Positions 37,379-47,812 of a stretch of DNA of 64,000 bases are shown in pieces. The number at the start of each line of letters is the position of its first letter. The first letter of the stretch is position 1. The notes beneath the pieces were generated by a model. That model searched no databases and was not told where the DNA came from. It saw nothing but the letters and a program-made list of their open reading frames with translations. Source of the DNA: an uncultured Victivallis sp. (lineage in GTDB: Bacteria > Verrucomicrobiota > Lentisphaeria > Victivallales > Victivallaceae); the NCBI RefSeq assembly GCF_944391105.1, contig NZ_CALXSK010000003.1, positions 62,001 to 126,000 on the forward strand, read 5' to 3'. Made by a program: the position numbers and the translations under genes.

Positions 37379-37460
37379 AAATAACGGACACGGGAAGTCA
37401 AAGCAGAGACGTCATGGTGGTGATTCAAACGGAAAACCAATGAAAAAAGCGAGGTCAGGA

Positions 37461-38507
37461 ATGCGGAAATTGTTTTTGCTCGGAATGTTGTTTTCTCTCT
37501 TTTGTTTTGTCAACCAACTGGAGGCGAAGGAAAATATGAAACCATTGAATGAAAAGGAAGAAAAAGTCGTCGAAATATCGATGCACACGGCGCGCGGAAA
37601 AATGCCGGAACTCCGGAAGGCGCTGGCCGCCGGTCTGGACGCCGGATTGACCGTCAATGAGATCAAGGAAGTGCTCGTTCAGCTCTATGCGTATTGCGGA
37701 TTTCCCCGCAGTTTGAATGCGCTTGGGAACTTCATGACACTGCTGAGCGAGCGCGAAGCGGCAGGAATCCGGGATGCGGCGGGGAAACTCCCGGGGCCGT
37801 TGCCGGAGGGAAAGAGCATCGATTTCGGAACGGCAAACCAGACGAAACTCTGCGGCGCGCCGGTCAAGGGGGCGCTCTTCGACTTCGCTCCGGCGATCGA
37901 CGAGTATTTGAAAGCGCATCTGTTTGGAGACATCTTCGGGCGGGACAATCTCGACTGGCGGACCCGGGAACTTGCCACCATCGCCGCGCTCGCTGCGATG
38001 GACGGCGTAGACAGCCAGCTTGCCAGCCACATCGCCATCGGGAAACACAATGGTGTAACGGAAGCACAGATCAGCTGGATTCTCGAAGTTGTAAAGGGGA
38101 ATTCCCTGAGTGCCTTCCCGCGCGGCGAGGAGAATACCGCCTATGCGAAATATTTCATCGGGAAGTCCTATCTTGCGCCGCTGACGAAAGACGAGAGGCT
38201 CCATGTTCCGGTCTCGAACGTGACTTTCGAACCCGGCTGCCGCAACAACTGGCACCGGCATACGGGCGGACAGCTCCTGATCGCGGTCGGCGGCGTCGGC
38301 TTCTACCAGGAGCGAGGAAAAGAGGCGAGGAAACTTCTGCCCGGAGACGTGGTGGAGATTCCGCCGGACGTCGATCACTGGCACGGCGCGGCTCCCGACC
38401 AGTGGTTTTCCCATCTCGCGATCGAGTGCAATCCGGAAACCAACAAAAATACCTGGCTCGAACCGGTCTCCGGTGCGGATTACGCCAGGGCGACCTCGGG
38501 AAAATGA
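37461..38507 (+). CDS. Exported carboxymuconolactone decarboxylase-like/cupin protein
   Basis: A 348-aa protein with a Sec signal peptide (LFLLGMLFSLFCFVNQLEA). It has two carboxymuconolactone-decarboxylase-like helical units (residues ~30-90, with EVLVQLYAYCGFPRSLNAL; and ~130-215, with RTRELATIAALAAMDG) and a C-terminal cupin (~245-335). The cupin metal ligands are visible in NNWHRHTGGQLL and DVDHWHGAAPD. The CMD units lack the Cys-x-x-Cys peroxidase pair, so catalysis probably rests with the cupin metal. I chose the ATG after GAGG over one 21 nt upstream. It is the first gene of the cluster and overlaps the next by 4 bp. Confidence 0.82.
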   Translation: MRKLFLLGMLFSLFCFVNQLEAKENMKPLNEKEEKVVEISMHTARGKMPELRKALAAGLDAGLTVNEIKEVLVQLYAYCGFPRSLNALGNFMTLLSEREAAGIRDAAGKLPGPLPEGKSIDFGTANQTKLCGAPVKGALFDFAPAIDEYLKAHLFGDIFGRDNLDWRTRELATIAALAAMDGVDSQLASHIAIGKHNGVTEAQISWILEVVKGNSLSAFPRGEENTAYAKYFIGKSYLAPLTKDERLHVPVSNVTFEPGCRNNWHRHTGGQLLIAVGGVGFYQERGKEARKLLPGDVVEIPPDVDHWHGAAPDQWFSHLAIECNPETNKNTWLEPVSGADYARATSGK

Positions 38508-38770: not shown

Positions 38771-39355
38771 ATGAAAAAGAGAACGATGGCATTGATGATG
38801 GCGGCTTCCTTCTTCGGAGCCGGCGGCTGTTCGGCGGAGAACGTTGCGGCGCAGAAGGTGGAAACCGAACCGGGCAAAATCCTGATCGCCTATTACTCGT
38901 GGAGCGGCAACACCCGTTTTGCGGCGGAACAGATTCAGAAGCTGACCGGGGGGACGCTCTTTGAAATCAAACCCGCCAAGGCGTATCCGTCCGATTACAG
39001 CGCGTGCGTCGATCAGGCGAAACAGGAGTGCCGCGACGAGTTCAAACCCGAACTTGCGACGAAAGTCGAGGATTTTGCGAAATACGATGTCATCTTCGTC
39101 GGCACGCCGAACTGGTGGAGCACGATGGCGCCGCCGGTGAGGAGCTTTCTCGCCGGCTATGACTTCAGCGGCAAGACGGTGATTCCGTTCGTCACGCATG
39201 GCGGCGGCGGAATGGCGCGCTGTGAACGGGATATGCGGAAGGTTTGTCCGAAAGCGGCGTTCGGCAGGGGCGGCGCGTTCTCCGGCGGAAGCATCCGAAA
39301 TGCGGGAGATGCTCTGAACAAGTGGGTCAACGAGGTCGTAACCATCCGGAAATAA
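38771..39355 (+). CDS. Flavodoxin-like lipoprotein
   Basis: A 194-aa flavodoxin with a lipoprotein-like leader (MMAASFFGAGGCSAEN; Cys20 is the probable lipid site). The FMN phosphate loop is YYSWSGNTRFAAEQI (residues ~42-56) and the aromatic flavin loop is GTPNWWSTMAPPVRSFL. The C-terminal half has PFVTHGGGGMARCERD. The fold is complete and resembles the single-domain flavodoxins found outside the cytoplasm in some anaerobes. A membrane-anchored, exported flavodoxin could take electrons from the cluster's iron-sulfur protein and pass them to the reductases. It lies between the helical protein and the esterase fusion, 11 nt from the latter. Confidence 0.85.
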   Translation: MKKRTMALMMAASFFGAGGCSAENVAAQKVETEPGKILIAYYSWSGNTRFAAEQIQKLTGGTLFEIKPAKAYPSDYSACVDQAKQECRDEFKPELATKVEDFAKYDVIFVGTPNWWSTMAPPVRSFLAGYDFSGKTVIPFVTHGGGGMARCERDMRKVCPKAAFGRGGAFSGGSIRNAGDALNKWVNEVVTIRK

Positions 39356-39366
39356 AGGAGCTCCTC

Positions 39367-40668
39367 ATGAGAACCTTTGAGAAAATTTCTCTGCTCCTGC
39401 TGACGGCGTTTGGTGCGTTTCTCCTTGTGGCGGAGGAGTTTTCAAAGGAGTCGATGGACTTCCTTGCCGCACGTCCGGCCGGAGTGCAGGAAGAGACTGC
39501 GCAGGCGGTTCGCGATGCTCTCAACGGCAATGTTGAGGCACTGAAGAAAGTTCGGGCGGGCATGCTTCAGGATGCGGCTCCGCCTGCCGGAGTCCGGGTG
39601 GAAAACACCCGGGTCGGGGATCGGAGAATCCGCTTCTATTATCCCGGAAGCGAACCGGGGAAGGCGGTCGTGCTGTATCTCCACGGTGGCGGGTGGACGC
39701 TCGGAGGATTGGAGGGGAGCGCCCGTTTCTGCGGCGATCTCGCGAAGGATTCCGGGCTGGATGTGGCGACGCTCGACTATCGCCTTGCGCCGGAGCATCG
39801 CGCTCCGGCGGCGCTGGAGGATGTGCTTGCGGCAGTCCGGCTGCTCCGGGAGCGCGGATACCGGCGGATTTATCTTGCCGGCGACAGCGCGGGCGGCAAT
39901 CTCGCAGCCTCCGCCGCAGGAAAGGAGCGTTCCGCCATTGCGGGAGTGATCCTCTACTATCCGGTCGTGCTTGCAAAGAACGACCGTTCGGAATCGTGGC
40001 GGAAATACGGAGTGGGGTTCGGGCTGGACGGAGCCTTGATGGAGGCGTTCAACGAATCGTATGCGCCTGGTGCTCTCGCGGAGGATCCTGCGGTCTCTCC
40101 CCTGCTGGCAGAAGAGTTCGTACACTATCCCGAAACGTTGATCGTCGCGGCGGAGTGCGACGTGTTGCACGATCAGGGCAGGGCGTTTGCGGAACTCCTG
40201 AAAAAGAACGGTGTTCCGGTGACGCACCGGACGCTTCCCGGAACGATTCACGCGTTCATGACCTATCCGGGGATGGAAAACGCGTATCAGGAAGGCGTGC
40301 GTCTCGCAACGGAATTCCTGGCAGGAAAGGAGACTCAAATGAAAAACCTCATTGCGCCGGAGAGCATCGTGCGGATCTCGCGGATCGAAGTCGATCCCGC
40401 ACAGCTTCCGGAATATCTCGCTCTCGTGACCGAATGCGGGCGCGAATCCATGGCGAAAGAGCCGGGTGTCTATATGATGTATTCGATGCAGGAGAAGGCG
40501 CATCCGGAACGGATCACGATTCTGGAGATCTACGCGGACCGCGCCGCCTATGAGCACCATATTCAAACGCCGCATTTTCAAAAGTACAAGCAGAAAACGT
40601 TGAAAATGGTCAAACAGCTGGATCTGCTCGATCAGAATCCGCTCGTCCCGGAAATGAGAATGAAGTAA
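39367..40668 (+). CDS. Exported alpha/beta hydrolase-ABM monooxygenase fusion
   Basis: A 433-aa protein with an N-terminal signal (ISLLLLTAFGAFLLVAEE). Residues ~75-320 form an HSL-type esterase: oxyanion motif YLHGGGWTLGG, nucleophile GDSAGGNLAAS, acid in VAAECDVLHDQGR and the catalytic His in PGTIHAFMTYPG. The last ~105 residues (from SIVRISRIEVDPAQ) form an antibiotic-biosynthesis monooxygenase (ABM) domain: YLALVTECGRESMAKEPGV, TILEIYADRAAYEHHIQTPH. The two halves are joined in one frame, with an internal ATG between them that could also start the ABM part. Hydrolysis followed by oxidation of an aromatic ester is a plausible role. AAAGGAG precedes the start. Confidence 0.82.
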   Translation: MRTFEKISLLLLTAFGAFLLVAEEFSKESMDFLAARPAGVQEETAQAVRDALNGNVEALKKVRAGMLQDAAPPAGVRVENTRVGDRRIRFYYPGSEPGKAVVLYLHGGGWTLGGLEGSARFCGDLAKDSGLDVATLDYRLAPEHRAPAALEDVLAAVRLLRERGYRRIYLAGDSAGGNLAASAAGKERSAIAGVILYYPVVLAKNDRSESWRKYGVGFGLDGALMEAFNESYAPGALAEDPAVSPLLAEEFVHYPETLIVAAECDVLHDQGRAFAELLKKNGVPVTHRTLPGTIHAFMTYPGMENAYQEGVRLATEFLAGKETQMKNLIAPESIVRISRIEVDPAQLPEYLALVTECGRESMAKEPGVYMMYSMQEKAHPERITILEIYADRAAYEHHIQTPHFQKYKQKTLKMVKQLDLLDQNPLVPEMRMK

Positions 40669-40672
40669 CTCC

Positions 40673-41317
40673 ATGAACAGACGCGAATTTCTGAAAACAT
40701 CATTGACGGCAACGGCAGTTATCGCCGGAAGCGCCATTCTTGGCGGAACGCTGGTACATGCCTCGGCAAACTCGAAAGGTGGAAAAATGAAAATTCTGGT
40801 CATTACGGGAAGTCCCCGGAAAAATGGAAATTCCAGCACGCTTGCGGAACATTTCATCCGTGGCGCGGAGGAGGCGGGGCACAACGTCGTCCGCTTCGAT
40901 GCCGCGTTCAAGGAGGTTCATCCCTGCATTGGTTGCAACCAATGCGGCATGAACGGCGAATGTGTGTTCAAGGATGATTTTGAATTTGTCCGGAAACATA
41001 TCCTTGACGCGGGGATGGTGGTCTTCGCCACGCCGATGTATTACTTCGGCATTTCTGCGCAGATCAAGGCGGTGATCGACCGCTTCTACGCGATCAACGG
41101 CTCGATCCATGTGCCGAAAAAGGCCGCTCTGCTGATGACTTATGCCGACAACAACAAACGCAAGGAAAAAGCAATCACCGATCATTACGAGATCCTGCTG
41201 GATTATCTCGGCTGGAGCGATGCCGGACAGGTGATTGCTCCCGGTGTCTGGCCGGTCGGCGCGGTCAATCATACAAAATTTCCGGAACAGGCGTATCTGC
41301 TGGGGAAGAGCGTGTAA
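40673..41317 (+). CDS. Tat-exported NADPH-dependent FMN reductase-like protein
   Basis: The 214-aa protein starts with a twin-arginine signal (MNRREFLKTSLTATAVIAG) and then a flavodoxin-fold FMN reductase: KILVITGSPRKNGNSSTLAE binds FMN phosphate, and FATPMYYFGISAQIKAVIDR is the family's second signature. A Cys pair, CIGCNQCGMNGECVF (residues ~84-98), suggests an iron-sulfur centre as in related iron-sulfur flavoproteins. Export in folded form with cofactors fits the Tat route. The start is 5 nt after the hydrolase stop. The electron partner is not known; the NapH/NapG-like fusion is the likely source. Confidence 0.88.
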   Translation: MNRREFLKTSLTATAVIAGSAILGGTLVHASANSKGGKMKILVITGSPRKNGNSSTLAEHFIRGAEEAGHNVVRFDAAFKEVHPCIGCNQCGMNGECVFKDDFEFVRKHILDAGMVVFATPMYYFGISAQIKAVIDRFYAINGSIHVPKKAALLMTYADNNKRKEKAITDHYEILLDYLGWSDAGQVIAPGVWPVGAVNHTKFPEQAYLLGKSV

Positions 41318-41319
41318 CC

Positions 41320-42297
41320 ATGAACCGACGCGATTTCATCAAGACGCTCGGCGTCGCTGGAGGGGTAATGCTGGTCGGCGGGGCGGCCAGGGCTCCCGTC
41401 CGGGATGAAATGGAAGTCCGGCAGGAAAGTTCCGCCGACCCTCTGCTTGCCGGAGTCTGTGACATTCACATTCATTGTCTGCCGGACACCCGGGCCCGTT
41501 GTATCGACGAGCTGACGCTCGCCCGTCAGGCGAAAGTGGCCGGATACCGGGCGCTGATGTACAAATCCAACGACTGGAGCTGTCACGACCGCGCTTATCT
41601 GATCCGGCAGGCTCTGCCGGAATTCGAGGTGTTCGGAAGTCTCTGCATGAACCGCGTTCATGGCGACAAGGTCAACGTCTTTGCCGCGGAACAGGCGATC
41701 AAAACCACCGGCTCACTCTGTCGCTGCATCTGGATGCCGACGCTCTCCGCCGCCTATCAGCACCGGTGCGACAAACTCCCGGGGCCGGGCATTCCGGTTC
41801 TCGATCCTCAGGGAAACGTTCTTCCAGAGGTCGTCCGGGTGATGGAACTCTGCGCCGAAGCGGACATCATCTTTGCATCTGGACACAGTTCGCCGCAGGA
41901 AAGCCTGATTCTGGCACGGAAGGCAAAGGAGATCGGAGTGAAGAAATTTGTCGTCACCCACGTCAATTCGCTGATCTGGAAGCTGACGCACGACCAGATT
42001 CGGCAGGCGGTCGATCTCGGTGCGTTTGTGGAGTATTGCTATCTGCCGCGTCTCTGGGGGCCGGGAAGCGGGAATCCGCAATTCGAACGGCAAAGTCACG
42101 AGGAGTTTCTGACTTATGTACGGACAATTCCGGAACGCAGCTTTATTTCGACCGATCTCGGTCAGCAGGGCAATCCGAATCCGATTGACGGAATGCGGCA
42201 GTGCATCCGGGAGCTGTCCGGGGCAGAAATTCCACAAAGAGATATTGATCTTATGGTGCGGATCAATCCTGCACACCTGATCGGACTTGACAAATGA
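41320..42297 (+). CDS. Tat-exported DUF6282-like amidohydrolase-fold protein
   Basis: A 325-aa protein with a twin-arginine signal (MNRRDFIKTLGVAGGVMLVGG). The mature part has the metal motif of amidohydrolase barrels, CDIHIHCLPDTRARCID, a central HVNSLIWKL and GHSSPQESLILARKAK, with a late acidic motif STDLGQQGNPNP. This matches proteins called DUF6282 or putative TIM-barrel metal-dependent hydrolases. The His-x-His is intact. It may hydrolyse a ring or amide of the cluster's unknown substrate. It starts 2 nt after the FMN reductase stop and is followed 15 nt later by the aldo/keto reductase. Confidence 0.78.
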   Translation: MNRRDFIKTLGVAGGVMLVGGAARAPVRDEMEVRQESSADPLLAGVCDIHIHCLPDTRARCIDELTLARQAKVAGYRALMYKSNDWSCHDRAYLIRQALPEFEVFGSLCMNRVHGDKVNVFAAEQAIKTTGSLCRCIWMPTLSAAYQHRCDKLPGPGIPVLDPQGNVLPEVVRVMELCAEADIIFASGHSSPQESLILARKAKEIGVKKFVVTHVNSLIWKLTHDQIRQAVDLGAFVEYCYLPRLWGPGSGNPQFERQSHEEFLTYVRTIPERSFISTDLGQQGNPNPIDGMRQCIRELSGAEIPQRDIDLMVRINPAHLIGLDK

Positions 42298-42312: not shown

Positions 42313-43599
42313 ATGAATCGACGTGATTTTCTCAAATCGGCGGCACTGGTCACGGCGGCCGGAGCCATGTTCGGAAAAGGGTCGGTTTTGAAGGCAGCGG
42401 AAACTCCCGCTGCGAAACCCAAAGGTCCGATTTTGAATTTCAATCCGCAGATGCAGTATCGCCCGATGGGACGGACGGGGGTGAATGTTTCCGCACTCGG
42501 GTTCGGGCTGCTTCGTCTGCCGATGCTCGCGGACGGGAAAACTGTGAACTCCGATCTGAGCGTTGCGATGATCCACCGCGCGATTGAAGGAGGCGTGAAC
42601 TACATTGACACCGGACGCGTCTATCTCGGCGGACAGAGCGAGGCGGTCGCCGGGAAAGCGCTGAAAGGCAACTGGCGCGAGCGGGTTTACGTCACCTCCA
42701 AATCTCCGTGGTGGATCATGGAAAAGCCGGAGGACTTTGAGAAGTTCTTCGACGAGTCCCGCCGGACGATGGGATGTGACATGATCGACTTTTATCACAT
42801 TCACATGATTATGCATCGCGGCTGGAAAGAGAAGGTGATCCCGTTCAAACTGATCGACAAGATCATGAAGCTCAAGGAGCAGGGAAAAATCCGCTTCGCC
42901 GGTTTCTCGTTCCATGATCGGCTTCAGCTTTTCAAGGAGGTAGTCGAAGCCGCCCCTTGGGACTTCTGCCTGATCCAGCACAACTATCTGGATTATGAGT
43001 ATGAGGCCGGCTGTCTTGGGCCGAAATATGCCGCAGCCAACGGGATGGGGCTTGCCGTGATGAAACCGGTACGGACGGGATTTCTTGCGAATCTGCCGCC
43101 GTCCATGCGCGCGGCGCTCCGCTCGACCGGAGTGGAAAAGCCGGACACCGAATGGGCGCTTGACTACCTGTGGGATATTCCGGAGGTCAGCGTCGCGGTG
43201 AGCGGCATGGGGGCGATGGCGGATGTCGAGGCAAATCTGCGCTACGCATCGAAAGCGAAGCCGAATATGCTCACTCCGGATGAACGCAAGGCGCTCGGCG
43301 CGGCAATTCAGGCTTACCGGAACACCCCGGGACATATCAACTGCACCGGCTGTTATCAGTGCATTCCGTGTCCGCACAACGTGGCGATCGGCTACATCTT
43401 CGCCTACGTCTACAACAATTATCTTGTGCACAAAGACAAAAAGCGGGCGCTTGCCGACTATACGGTTGCGATGTCGCCGATTCAGCGCGGAGCGCCCGCC
43501 TCGGCATGTGTGAATTGCGGCGCGTGTCTCGCGAAGTGTCCGCAGAAACTCAACATTCCAGAACTGTTGAAACGTGTCCGGAAAGATCTGGAAGACTGA
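42313..43599 (+). CDS. Tat-exported aldo/keto reductase with two [4Fe-4S] motifs
   Basis: A 428-aa protein: twin-arginine signal MNRRDFLKSAALVTAAGA, then an aldo/keto reductase barrel (residues ~50-330). The catalytic Asp/Tyr region reads YIDTGRVYLGGQSE, and VYVTSKSPWWIM and DFYHIHMIMHRG follow. The C-terminal part holds two ferredoxin-type motifs: CTGCYQCIPCP (Cys-x2-Cys-x2-Cys-x2-Cys) and CVNCGACLAKCP (Cys-x2-Cys-x2-Cys-x3-Cys). Such iron-sulfur AKRs can take electrons from a ferredoxin instead of NADPH, which would be scarce outside the cytoplasm. It ends 131 nt before the membrane fusion gene, which has its own promoter and operator. Confidence 0.9.
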   Translation: MNRRDFLKSAALVTAAGAMFGKGSVLKAAETPAAKPKGPILNFNPQMQYRPMGRTGVNVSALGFGLLRLPMLADGKTVNSDLSVAMIHRAIEGGVNYIDTGRVYLGGQSEAVAGKALKGNWRERVYVTSKSPWWIMEKPEDFEKFFDESRRTMGCDMIDFYHIHMIMHRGWKEKVIPFKLIDKIMKLKEQGKIRFAGFSFHDRLQLFKEVVEAAPWDFCLIQHNYLDYEYEAGCLGPKYAAANGMGLAVMKPVRTGFLANLPPSMRAALRSTGVEKPDTEWALDYLWDIPEVSVAVSGMGAMADVEANLRYASKAKPNMLTPDERKALGAAIQAYRNTPGHINCTGCYQCIPCPHNVAIGYIFAYVYNNYLVHKDKKRALADYTVAMSPIQRGAPASACVNCGACLAKCPQKLNIPELLKRVRKDLED

Positions 43600-43730: not shown

Positions 43731-45065
43731 ATGAAAATCAGAAAAAATACCGTGAGATTCGGGCGGATCGGCGCGGCGGCTCTGTCTCTTTTCATCATGA
43801 CAGCGGCCTTTGCCGGATTGGGTTCGTCAGCCGCCGCATGGCTGCCGGGAGTGCAGTTCGCTCCGGCTCTGATGTCATGTCTTGCGGTGTTTTCCCTGGG
43901 AGCTTTTCTAACCGTTCTTGGAATTGCGCTTCTGACGTTCTGCTTCGGACGCTTTTACTGTGCATTCATCTGCCCGCTCGGCATTCTGCAGGATCTGATC
44001 GGCTTTCTCTCCCGCCGGAAAGGCGGGAGAAGTTCGAATCTCCGCAAAACCCGGTATGCGATTGCCGGAGTTGTATTCGGCATGCTGATTGCCGGTTGGA
44101 GCGGCGGACTTCTGTTCCTCGATCCTTATTCGAATTTCGGACGATTGCTTAGTTCGTTCACGATCGGCGGCTTGATTCCGCTGATCGTGCTTGTGTTACT
44201 GGTGATTTGGCAAAAGCGAATTTTCTGTACAGCGATCTGCCCGGTTGGAACCGTACTGGGACTGTTTGCCAAACACGGGATCTTCCAGTTGCGTCTGACG
44301 GAACAGTGTGTCAAATGTGGCCAGTGTGTCAAAGTGTGTCCAGCCGGATGCATCAACCCGGCGGCGGGAACGATTGACAACGAGCGGTGTGTCCGCTGTA
44401 TGAACTGTCTTTCCATCTGCCGACTTCATGCGGTGAAGTTTGGTCGTCCGGAAAAGAATACGCAGAGCTTTGACGAGGGACGCCGGGCGTTTCTGGTGAA
44501 TGGCACCGTTCTGATCGCCGGGCTGGCCGCGGGAGTGACTCTGGCAAAAGTCGGACTGGGGAAGCTGGCCGACTACGCGAAACGTTTTTCCTTTCTTCCT
44601 CCGGGAGCGGGTAATGCGGAACGGTTCGCCGCCAGATGCACGGCGTGCCAGCTCTGCACGGCGAACTGCCCGGCGAAGATCATCGTCCCGGCTCCGGGAG
44701 GAGACGGTCCGGTTTCGCTCGACTTGAATCGCGGGGCGTGTTTCTATGACTGCAACCGCTGTTCGCAGCTCTGCCCGACCGGCGCGCTCCGTCCGCTGAC
44801 GCTTCAAGTCAAACAGAAAACGAAAATTGCGGAAGCGAAATTCAATCCGCGCGTCTGCATCGTGTTTCAGGAGGGGGAGAAGTGCGGGAAATGCGCGAAC
44901 GTCTGCCCGACCGGTGCGGTGACGCTCCGTCCGACCGGTGCGCCGCGTCCTGTCAATACCGCTCTCTGCATCGGCTGCGGAGCCTGTCAACAGGTCTGCC
45001 CCGCCGTCCCGGAAAAAGCGATGACCATCGCTCCGGTCGAACAACAAACCTTGCTGGAGGGATAA
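43731..45065 (+). CDS. NapH-NapG-like membrane quinol oxidase/ferredoxin fusion
   Basis: A 444-aa protein. Residues 1-180 have four membrane helices and two Cys-x3-Cys-Pro motifs, YCAFICPLG (Cys77-Cys81) and FCTAICPVG (Cys166-Cys170), the hallmark of NapH/NosR-type proteins that draw electrons from quinol. Two ferredoxin motifs follow, CVKCGQCVKVCP and CVRCMNCLSIC. Then at residues 251-272 there is RRAFLVNGTVLIAGLAAG, a twin-arginine-like motif plus helix as at the start of NapG. The remaining part carries further clusters: CTACQLCTANCP, CNRCSQLCP, CGKCANVCP and CIGCGACQQVCP. It thus looks like NapH and NapG joined, moving electrons from the membrane to exported partners. Confidence 0.85.
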   Translation: MKIRKNTVRFGRIGAAALSLFIMTAAFAGLGSSAAAWLPGVQFAPALMSCLAVFSLGAFLTVLGIALLTFCFGRFYCAFICPLGILQDLIGFLSRRKGGRSSNLRKTRYAIAGVVFGMLIAGWSGGLLFLDPYSNFGRLLSSFTIGGLIPLIVLVLLVIWQKRIFCTAICPVGTVLGLFAKHGIFQLRLTEQCVKCGQCVKVCPAGCINPAAGTIDNERCVRCMNCLSICRLHAVKFGRPEKNTQSFDEGRRAFLVNGTVLIAGLAAGVTLAKVGLGKLADYAKRFSFLPPGAGNAERFAARCTACQLCTANCPAKIIVPAPGGDGPVSLDLNRGACFYDCNRCSQLCPTGALRPLTLQVKQKTKIAEAKFNPRVCIVFQEGEKCGKCANVCPTGAVTLRPTGAPRPVNTALCIGCGACQQVCPAVPEKAMTIAPVEQQTLLEG

Positions 45066-45066
45066 A

Positions 45067-45747
45067 ATGGATCAGTTCAAGGATCTCGGTTTTGCCAAAC
45101 TCGACCTGAGCCGTGCAGACCGCACCGGTCAGGGGGAAACCGTCTACTGTCCCGGGAAAACGCCGGAACAGCTGATGGAAATCATGCGGACTTTCCAACG
45201 CACCGGGGTACGGGTGCTTGGAACAAAATGTTCGCCGGAACAATTCGCCTTTCTGCGGAATCACTCCATCCCGGTGGAGTACGACGAGACTTCAAGACTT
45301 CTGATGTCCCCGTGGGGCAGAAAAACGGAACTCGCCGGGCTGATCGCCGTCTGTACCGGAGGAACGGCGGATCTTCCCGTGGCGGAAGAGGCGGCGCAGA
45401 CGGCGGAATTCTTCGGAGCGAAAGTGGAACGGTATTTTGACGTCGGCGTCGCGGGACTCCATCGGCTGCTGGCGAAAATCGACGCGATCCGCAGGGCCGA
45501 CGTGGTGATTGCCGCAGCCGGAATGGAAGGCGCTCTCGGAAGTGTACTTGCCGGACTTGTGGAGTCTCCGCTTGTCGCGGTTCCGACCTCGGTCGGATAC
45601 GGTGCCAGTTTCGGCGGCGTCGCCCCGCTCCTGGCAATGCTGAACTCCTGCGCGGAAGGGATGTCCGTCGTCAACATCGACAACGGATTCGGAGCAGGCG
45701 TGCTCGCCTGTCGGATGATCCGGATGATGGAGAGGAGAATGCAATAA
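45067..45747 (+). CDS. larB: LarB-type nickel-pincer cofactor synthesis protein
   Basis: A 226-aa protein of the LarB family, which carboxylates nicotinate adenine dinucleotide to start the nickel-pincer cofactor of lactate racemase-like enzymes. Key patterns are DLSRADRTGQGETVYCPGKT, RLLMSPWG, the PurE-like core AVCTGGTADLPVAEEAAQT, and AAAGMEGALGSVLAGLV with PTSVGYGASFGG and NIDNGFGAGVLAC. The family length is usual. larC and larE are not present here, so it may serve another enzyme or genes elsewhere. The start follows the membrane-fusion stop by 1 nt, with GGAGG in the overlap. Confidence 0.9.
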   Translation: MDQFKDLGFAKLDLSRADRTGQGETVYCPGKTPEQLMEIMRTFQRTGVRVLGTKCSPEQFAFLRNHSIPVEYDETSRLLMSPWGRKTELAGLIAVCTGGTADLPVAEEAAQTAEFFGAKVERYFDVGVAGLHRLLAKIDAIRRADVVIAAAGMEGALGSVLAGLVESPLVAVPTSVGYGASFGGVAPLLAMLNSCAEGMSVVNIDNGFGAGVLACRMIRMMERRMQ

Positions 45748-45846: not shown

Positions 45847-46065
45847 ATGTCGCTCGGATTCACGGAAATCATTTTAATCGCGCTCTTCATTCTGATCGTG
45901 TTCGGAGCCAAGCGGATTCCCGAACTGGCCCGTGCCATGGGCCGGGCTTCGTATGAGTTTAAAAAGGCAAAAGAATCTCTGAGCCTGGAAAGTCAGGAGC
46001 TGATGACCGCAGCGGAAAACGCGGCGGAAAAAGAGGATCGGAAGGAAACCGGGAAAGAGGCATGA
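45847..46065 (+). CDS. tatA: Twin-arginine translocase TatA/TatB-type subunit
   Basis: A 72-aa protein with the TatA layout: short N-terminus, a membrane helix (TEIILIALFILIVFG), the hinge AKRIPELARAMGRA and an amphipathic helix, followed by a charged tail. The FG-x-K-R-I-P-E-L motif is diagnostic. It precedes tatC with a 4-bp overlap (ATGA) and GGAGG 8 nt before the ATG. A GTAACGATAAC element resembling half of the operator near 43690 lies 21 nt upstream of the start. A second TatA/B is not seen, so this may be a minimal TatAC. Confidence 0.92.
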   Translation: MSLGFTEIILIALFILIVFGAKRIPELARAMGRASYEFKKAKESLSLESQELMTAAENAAEKEDRKETGKEA

Positions 46066-46790
46066 AAGCGCCGGAAAACACCCTGATCGCGCACCTGGAG
46101 GCGTTGCGGCGGACACTGCTGAGCTGTGTCGTCGCAACGGCGATCCTTTATCCGGTCGGGTATCTGATCTCCCCCCGGGTGATCGGAACACTGGTACGCT
46201 GGAGTTTTTCGGAGTCGGTTGGACGGCTCCACTACTTCGCTCCGATGGAGGTATTCTGGGTGCAGCTCAAACTGGCGCTGATTCTCGCTCTGGTCATGGC
46301 GTATCCATGGAATCTGCTGCAGGTCTGGCGTTTTCTGCTTCCCGCGCTTTACCGGGAGGAGCGCAAAGCGTTCGGATGGTGGATTTTATTCGCGTCCGTC
46401 CTGTTCTTCGGAGGAGTCGTATTTTGCGGCGGGGTGATTCTGCCGATGCTGATGAACTTTTCCGGCGGATTCGCCACGCCGGAACTTCAGCCGATTCTGG
46501 GACTGGCGAACTTTCTGAATCTCGCCGGCTGGCTGATGCTCGCGTTCGGCGTCATGTTTCAAGCGCCGATCGTGGTTCTTCTTGCCGTCCGGTTCGGCGT
46601 GATTTCCGCCGAGTCCTTGCGGAAGAAGCGGGCGTACATCATGACCGCGATTCTGATTGTCGCAGCCATTCTGACCCCACCGGACATCGTCAGTCAGGTC
46701 ATGCTTGCCGTTCCCACCTGGCTGTTATTTGAACTTGGATTATTTCTCGCAACCAAACTGGAATTCAAACAGGGAGAGAAAAACTCATGA
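46062..46790 (+). CDS. tatC: Twin-arginine translocase subunit TatC
   Basis: A 242-aa membrane protein with six helices. The N-terminal signature LIAHLEALRRTLLSCVVATA holds the conserved Glu of the twin-arginine-binding site. ALILALVMAYPWNLLQVWRF and FLLPALYREERKAF form the first cytoplasmic loop region. FGVMFQAPIVVLL carries the Phe-Gln-x-Pro motif, and KKRAYIMTAILIVAAILTPP and DIVSQVMLAVPTWLLFEL complete the family pattern. It lies directly between tatA and the last Tat substrate gene, each joined by a 4-bp overlap, so its dedicated use by this cluster is likely. Confidence 0.95.
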   Translation: MKAPENTLIAHLEALRRTLLSCVVATAILYPVGYLISPRVIGTLVRWSFSESVGRLHYFAPMEVFWVQLKLALILALVMAYPWNLLQVWRFLLPALYREERKAFGWWILFASVLFFGGVVFCGGVILPMLMNFSGGFATPELQPILGLANFLNLAGWLMLAFGVMFQAPIVVLLAVRFGVISAESLRKKRAYIMTAILIVAAILTPPDIVSQVMLAVPTWLLFELGLFLATKLEFKQGEKNS

Positions 46791-47812
46791 ACAGACGTGA
46801 TTTCCTGAAGAGTGCCCTGACGCTTGCCGCATTCACCCCGCTAGCCGGCATTCTGACCAAAGCGGTGGAACCCGTGAAAGCCGGAGCCGTTCCGAAAGTG
46901 TATTTCACGCGGAATCTATCGCCGGAATCGGTGATCCGCATGTACCGGACGCTCGGAATTTCGCTGCCCGGCAAGGTTGCGGTGAAGGTGCATTCCGGCG
47001 AGAAAGGCAATCAGAATTTTCTGCGTCCGGAGTTTCTCCGTCCCATGGTCGAGGCGGTCAACGGGACGGTGGTCGAGTGCAATACCGCTTATGAAGGGGC
47101 ACGGAATTCCACGGCGGAACATCGGCAGCTCATCGCGGAACATGGCTGGACGAAACTCTTCACCGTCGACCTGATGGATGCCGAAGGGCCCGATATGGTT
47201 CTGCCGATCCCCGGAGGGAAGATCCTGAAGCGGAACTATGTGGGAAAGAATATGGCAAACTACGACTCCATGCTGATTCTCTCCCATTTCAAAGGTCATC
47301 CAGTTGCCGGGTATGGCGGGGCGCTGAAACAGCTCTCAATCGGCTGCGCGTCGATCAAGGGGAAAGCGCTGATCCACTCCGGCGGGGTTTCCGGCGATCA
47401 GGTCGAGTGCTGGAAACACATGGCTTCGCAGGAGGTGTTCGGAGACGCCATGGCGGAAACGGCCGGAACGATTGTCGATTATTTCAAAGGGAAAATCGCG
47501 TTCGTCAACATGATGTGCAATCTGTCGGTCGACTGCGACTGCTGTGCCGTGGCCGAAGATCCCTGCATGAAGGACGTCGGAATCCTCTCCTCGACCGATC
47601 CCGTCGCGCTCGATCAGGCGTGCATGGATCTGATCCGGCGCTCGAAGGATCCCGGACGGGATCACTTCCTTGAGCGGGTCACTTCCCGGATGGGAACCCG
47701 GGTGATCGACACGGCCGCCCGGCGCGGAACGGGCTCTCTGCGGTACGAACTCATCCAGCTCGATCCATCGAGTTCCACCAAGCCGGCCGACCGTTTCGCT
47801 AGGGAAGCGTGA
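46787..47812 (+). CDS. Tat-exported DUF362 iron-sulfur protein
   Basis: A 341-aa protein with a twin-arginine signal (MNRRDFLKSALTLAAFTPL). The mature part matches DUF362: KVAVKVHSGEKGNQNFLRPE, VEAVNGTVVECNTAYEG, LILSHFKGHPVAGYGGALK and MGCASIKG-like IGCASIKGKALIH. CDCCAVAEDPCMKDVGIL and STDPVALDQACMDLI follow. The cysteines may hold a metal or cluster, but a classic ferredoxin motif is absent. It overlaps tatC by 4 bp and closes the cluster. Its reaction is unknown. Confidence 0.85.
   Translation: MNRRDFLKSALTLAAFTPLAGILTKAVEPVKAGAVPKVYFTRNLSPESVIRMYRTLGISLPGKVAVKVHSGEKGNQNFLRPEFLRPMVEAVNGTVVECNTAYEGARNSTAEHRQLIAEHGWTKLFTVDLMDAEGPDMVLPIPGGKILKRNYVGKNMANYDSMLILSHFKGHPVAGYGGALKQLSIGCASIKGKALIHSGGVSGDQVECWKHMASQEVFGDAMAETAGTIVDYFKGKIAFVNMMCNLSVDCDCCAVAEDPCMKDVGILSSTDPVALDQACMDLIRRSKDPGRDHFLERVTSRMGTRVIDTAARRGTGSLRYELIQLDPSSSTKPADRFAREA

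Follow-up and report, generated by a model that had tools for sequence, protein, structure and literature searches.

A NapH–NapG fusion polyferredoxin with a conserved internal twin arginine, encoded beside Tat-type redox proteins in Victivallales

Polytopic polyferredoxins (PFDs) are NapH–NapG fusions with seven clusters and a twin arginine before the fifth transmembrane helix, TM5 (Tooke et al. 2017, PMC5449189). For the PFD of the delta proteobacterium MLMS-1, export of MBP and AmiA reporters needs both Tat and the twin arginine and is abolished by an RR-to-KK change; the features that Tooke et al. associate with the handover from Sec to Tat are a weakly hydrophobic last transmembrane helix and positive charge after it (PMC5449189). 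The published examples come from Latescibacteria, Nitrospirae, Caldithrix, Thermoplasmatales, Anaerolinea, Anaeroarcus, and a deltaproteobacterium; Lentisphaerota are unmentioned in that study, and Bacteroidetes figure there only for another family (PMC5449189). Actinobacterial Rieske proteins with an internal Tat motif likewise place a Tat-dependent helix and a cofactor domain after Sec-dependent helices, although they have three helices and a 2Fe-2S Rieske domain and belong to a different family (PMC5449189). A NapH-like Fe-S module is also shared by NosR, PceC, and other proteins, where it serves a range of extracytosolic redox enzymes (Meheust et al. 2021, PMC8238504).

Here we describe a protein of the PFD design encoded in a 64,000-nucleotide stretch of the genome of an uncultured Victivallis sp. 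(the window). The open reading frame starts with an ATG preceded by an AAGGAG-like ribosome site, and its bounds are exactly those of the first line below.

43731–45065, + strand: fused NapH-like/NapG-like membrane polyferredoxin of 444 aa (Pfam, NCBIfam, BLASTP)
43731–44456, + strand: NapH-like half, residues 1–242, four predicted TM helices and then a putatively cytoplasmic 2x[4Fe-4S] ferredoxin domain (NapH models, BLASTP, insertion energies, loop charges)
Residues ~8–31, ~51–75, ~107–130, and ~140–164: TM1, TM2, TM3, and TM4 (predicted)
43959–43976, + strand: first Cx3CP motif, C77-C81-P82
44226–44243, + strand: second Cx3CP motif, C166-C170-P171
44307–44420, + strand: ferredoxin motifs C193/196/199/203 and C220/223/226/230, predicted cytoplasmic (Pfam, Cys motifs)
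44481–44486, + strand: internal twin arginine R251-R252 (conservation; aligned to the E. coli NapG Tat motif)
44481–44552, + strand: TM5, of low hydrophobicity (predicted +0.27 kcal/mol), with a K/R-rich stretch after it
44637–44999, + strand: NapG-like half with four 4Fe-4S motifs, predicted periplasmic (Cys motifs, BLASTP)

The fused architecture is read directly from the sequence. In BLASTP searches against E. coli K-12, residues 48–230 match NapH (E=4e-18) and residues 250–436 match NapG (E=4e-16); the two halves cover most of each E. coli protein, including the Cx3CP motifs, the ferredoxin motifs, the Tat twin arginine, and PPGA, and the NapG alignment sets GRRRFLRDV of NapG over GRRAFLVNG of the fusion and RPPGA over LPPGA. 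The original prediction of a fusion, with four helices, two Cx3CP motifs, and two ferredoxin motifs in its first half, is thus borne out, whereas the string RRAFLVNGTVLIAGLAAG, which it had placed at residues 251–272, has 18 residues and occupies 251–268. In E. coli, NapH and NapG are made separately, as two proteins that belong to the nitrate reductase system, in contrast to the single chain found here. Pfam identifies Fer4_5, a membrane domain of the NapH type, together with numerous Fer4 domains, and NCBIfam ranks NapH first and also reports NapG over residues 243–436, both far under their curated cutoffs (NapH: 89.5 versus 234 bits for NF007013 and 89.1 versus 213 bits for TIGR02163; NapG: 45.2 versus 269 bits for NF007012 and 37.7 versus 179 bits for TIGR00397). 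A PDB sequence search with the fusion protein returned ferredoxin-domain matches only. By cysteine count there are seven 4Fe-4S motifs, each presumably occupied by a cluster: three on the predicted inner side and four past TM5 (C303/306/309/313, C337/341/344/348, C376/385/388/392, and C413/416/419/423). By analogy with the described PFDs (PMC5449189), the two Cx3CP motifs together would provide the four cysteines of the third cytoplasmic-side cluster.

Compared by published description with the MLMS-1 protein (Q1NSB0), the window protein shares five TM helices, four of them N-terminal, the twin arginine directly before TM5, seven predicted clusters (three in, four out), and a weakly hydrophobic TM5 of positive insertion energy followed by positive charge; it is shorter, with the twin arginine at residue 251 versus a TM5 at 338–359 in Q1NSB0. 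Given that both are NapH–NapG fusions, we regard them as homologous by parts. The design is already known and the window protein is a further member in Victivallales; the novelty that the title of the original prediction implied does not stand, since Tooke et al. had reported both the architecture and its dependence on Tat in 2017 (PMC5449189). Modules of the NosR and PceC type are accompanied by a flavinylated FMN-binding domain, either their own or that of a partner (PMC8238504). In the window protein, by contrast, a NapG-like polyferredoxin makes up the predicted exported half, and neither the protein nor the scanned neighbors showed an FMN-binding domain like that of ApbE substrates.

The fusion is widespread: 36 of 61 related genomes have a match to it, as do 106 of 198 from the class, and further matches occur in Parabacteroides and Bacteroides. 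Disrupted copies, frameshifted or interrupted, occur in metagenome assemblies (L047 8001–9325, L044 1438–2782, and L086 4983–6347). The L047 frame is broken near residue 231, at the module boundary, into two ORFs with a 4-base overlap, which might suggest that the fusion itself stems from misassembly or from two genes being read through by chance. We give this next to no credence: of the 103 family ORFs that we found, 93 are intact over their full length, and they come from independent genomes and also from Bacteroidota; this number of intact copies already refutes it. At L047, the frame is disrupted by a small deletion that also removes C230, so we rejected this locus as a natural two-gene version and regard it as a disrupted or misassembled copy; L044, which is frameshifted too, and L086 break at other places. 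No intact split NapH/NapG pair was found. That the fusion is not a chance product also follows from its presence in 36 related genomes and from the conservation of its twin arginine.

That conservation was assessed in 86 distinct full-length relatives from Victivallales, their class, and Bacteroidota. Position 252 is arginine in all 86, and position 251 is arginine in 83 and lysine in three; loss of the twin arginine among homologs, an outcome that the original prediction had named as refuting it, is thus not what we see. Phenylalanine at 254 (70/86) and leucine at 255 (71/86) complete a resemblance to SRRxFLK. The linker around the pair is nearly random in sequence: mean column entropy is 3.3 bits over residues 242–250 versus 0.2 at R251 and 0.0 at R252. 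Approximate insertion energies, estimated with Hessa constants, are negative for TM1–4 (family medians about −2 kcal/mol) and positive for TM5 in 92% of the family (median +1.17 kcal/mol), and all 86 relatives have one or more K/R after TM5. Predicted net charges are +5, +6, and +3 for the inner loops and 0 for both outer loops, a positive-inside pattern that indicates four helices with the N-terminus inside. Sidedness rests on charge and homology, since an AlphaFold2 model built from five sequences was of low confidence (pLDDT 34, pTM 0.20) and was discarded.

On these grounds, the second half is very probably exported via Tat. The Tat dependence put forward in the original prediction draws support from the alignment of the twin arginine with that of NapG, its conservation, the weak helix followed by positive charge, and linkage to tatAC in many genomes. 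Two rival accounts of this region can be weighed against the same data. The arginines might serve only as a positive-inside flank, with TM5 inserted through Sec/YidC and the C-terminal half exported unfolded and matured outside. Positive flanks at the N-terminal end of helices are common and three relatives have KR, but the near-invariance of both arginines differs from other positive loop positions (9, 97, 161, and 181), which swap K/R freely, so that more than mere charge is conserved; the residues at 254 and 255 fit a Tat motif, Sec would not readily insert a helix as weakly hydrophobic as TM5, and multicluster ferredoxins mature in the cytoplasm. We therefore judge a flank-only role very unlikely. 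It is similarly improbable that TM5 stays uninserted and that all clusters lie in the cytoplasm of a polyferredoxin anchored by four helices: the marginal hydrophobicity of TM5 would agree with this and the structural model is of no help, but the twin arginine is conserved and aligned to that of exported NapG, export is published for the homologous design, and putative exported partners and tatAC are linked to the gene. A KR pair before TM5 is a natural weakened Tat motif, and we note that its presence in three relatives counts against the Tat reading. These KR fusions (L127 4601–6172, L128 2614–4191, and L129 6833–4983, from genomes G110, G113, and G111) are related to one another, forming one tree group from one genus, and TatC is found in their genomes.

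The gene lies in a cluster whose other members, in order around it, are as follows.

40673–41317, + strand: Tat-signal FMN reductase-like flavoprotein
41320–42297, + strand: DUF6282 protein with Tat signal
42313–43599, + strand: aldo/keto reductase (AKR) with N-terminal Tat signal and C-terminal 4Fe-4S dicluster domain
(43731–45065, + strand: the fusion)
45067–45747, + strand: LarB, nickel-pincer cofactor synthesis (NCBIfam NF033503, 274 bits versus a cutoff of 175)
45847–46065, + strand: TatA (PF02416, 57.5 bits)
46062–46790, + strand: TatC (TIGR00945, 157 bits, above cutoff), overlapping tatA by 4 bases
46787–47812, + strand: DUF362 protein with a Tat-like N-terminus, overlapping tatC by 4 bases

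Pfam confirms the tatA and tatC genes that the original prediction had placed downstream; larB intervenes and starts 1 base past the fusion stop codon. The fusion has larB as its immediate neighbor in L036, L038, and L040 as well, and a search for LarA (PF09861) in the host genome gave nothing at cutoff. The host genome has two tatC genes, the one in this redox cluster (46062–46790) and another at G000:C22:46469–47092. Upstream in the window, 37440–38507 encodes carboxymuconolactone decarboxylase domains fused to a cupin and belongs to the same cluster in several relatives, and 39244–40668 encodes an alpha/beta hydrolase joined to an antibiotic biosynthesis monooxygenase (ABM) domain, whose TTG start overlaps a flavodoxin gene, so that the true start is probably further in.

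Context was available for 65 family loci, of which 24 have tatC within about 5 kb of the fusion, 24 have an AKR gene nearby (Bacteroidota included), and 26 have a nearby DUF362 gene; the AKR and DUF362 neighbors mostly have a Tat-type N-terminus. TatC was present in all 12 fusion-bearing genomes checked. The tat linkage may be owed to the neighboring Tat substrates and not to the fusion. The second copy of the fusion in the host genome directly follows a Tat-DUF362 gene, and the same pair occurs in Parabacteroides. In our phylogenetic tree, AKR-linked fusions form a single large group toward the Victivallales side and occur separately in Bacteroidota, which suggests that AKRs are functional partners whose association with the fusion originated, or was retained, on more than one occasion. 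We know of no NADPH supply for an AKR in the periplasm, and given this it is reasonable to posit that the AKR is fed through Fe-S clusters. The AKR with the ferredoxin domain is likely the redox partner of the fusion, and Tat-exported DUF362 proteins are likely partners as well. Our literature search on the AKR/DUF362 cluster found nothing.

The reading we favor, and hold to be probable, is that the window protein is a polytopic polyferredoxin dual-targeted by Sec and Tat, in which a NapH-like membrane module and a NapG-like ferredoxin pass electrons to Tat-exported partners. Sec would insert TM1–4 with the N-terminus inside, leaving the Cx3CP motifs and the 2x[4Fe-4S] ferredoxin on the cytoplasmic side, while the NapG half would fold and acquire its four clusters in the cytoplasm. 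Tat would then recognize R251-R252 and deliver TM5, so that the four clusters end up periplasmic and tethered to the membrane module. Electrons from a donor in the cytoplasm or the membrane would cross to the Tat-exported partners encoded alongside, chiefly the AKR, with DUF362 proteins as putative acceptors in other groups of the family. Four deep-branching relatives (L133, L134, L136, and L137; 427, 428, 415, and 424 aa) are without both cytoplasmic ferredoxin motifs but retain the Cx3CP motifs, the twin arginine, and the four outer cluster motifs; the electron entry point may thus vary within the family.

The original prediction placed the exported ferredoxin at a quinol site, and a strictly Nap-like role would make the fusion a quinol dehydrogenase that oxidizes menaquinol at its NapH half and passes electrons out via its NapG half. 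In E. coli and Wolinella, NapH and NapG together make up a quinol dehydrogenase (PMC5449189), and UbiA, the prenyltransferase of quinone synthesis, scores above cutoff in eight of the 36 fusion-bearing genomes and in a Bacteroides control genome, Bacteroidota being among the carriers of the fusion. In the host genome (94.9% complete), however, there is no UbiA above cutoff (best 19.8 versus 34.2 bits), no MqnA/D of the futalosine pathway, and no match to NapA (TIGR01706), and MenD-like matches are sub-threshold only. To our knowledge, every known pathway to isoprenoid quinones involves an enzyme of the UbiA family. The UbiA profile detected all 14 control genomes above cutoff, including Bacteroides; a match near the paralog (19.6 bits versus the cutoff of 34.2) was rejected as a prenyltransferase. 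UbiA is missing in 28 of the 36 fusion-bearing genomes among the 61 searched, and in 16 of the 23 that are at least 90% complete. A negative association between fusion and UbiA across the 61 genomes (p=0.014) is gone at a completeness of at least 90% (p=0.73), and we therefore limit our claim to the fusion often occurring without UbiA. Kiritimatiella glycovorans, of a related class, is reported to be without quinones (PMC7356697). The host thus seems unable, as judged from its gene content, to make quinones for the fusion, the term quinol site is doubtful here, and a strictly Nap-like role is possible but rather unlikely. Quinone could be taken up from the surroundings.

These results extend the known range of Sec/Tat dual-targeted polyferredoxins to Lentisphaerota (Victivallales) and Bacteroidota, and they indicate exported AKRs and DUF362 proteins as partners. 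They also raise the question of what the electron source is for a NapH-type module where hosts appear to make no quinone. Tentatively, we speculate that in quinone-less gut Victivallales the fusion may be a stand-alone wire that needs neither quinone nor heme: cytosolic ferredoxin or flavodoxin would supply the electrons, the seven Fe-S clusters would conduct them, and exported AKRs, using their own ferredoxin domain instead of NADPH, would receive them. If true, this would mean periplasmic reductive metabolism in bacteria thought to be purely fermentative.
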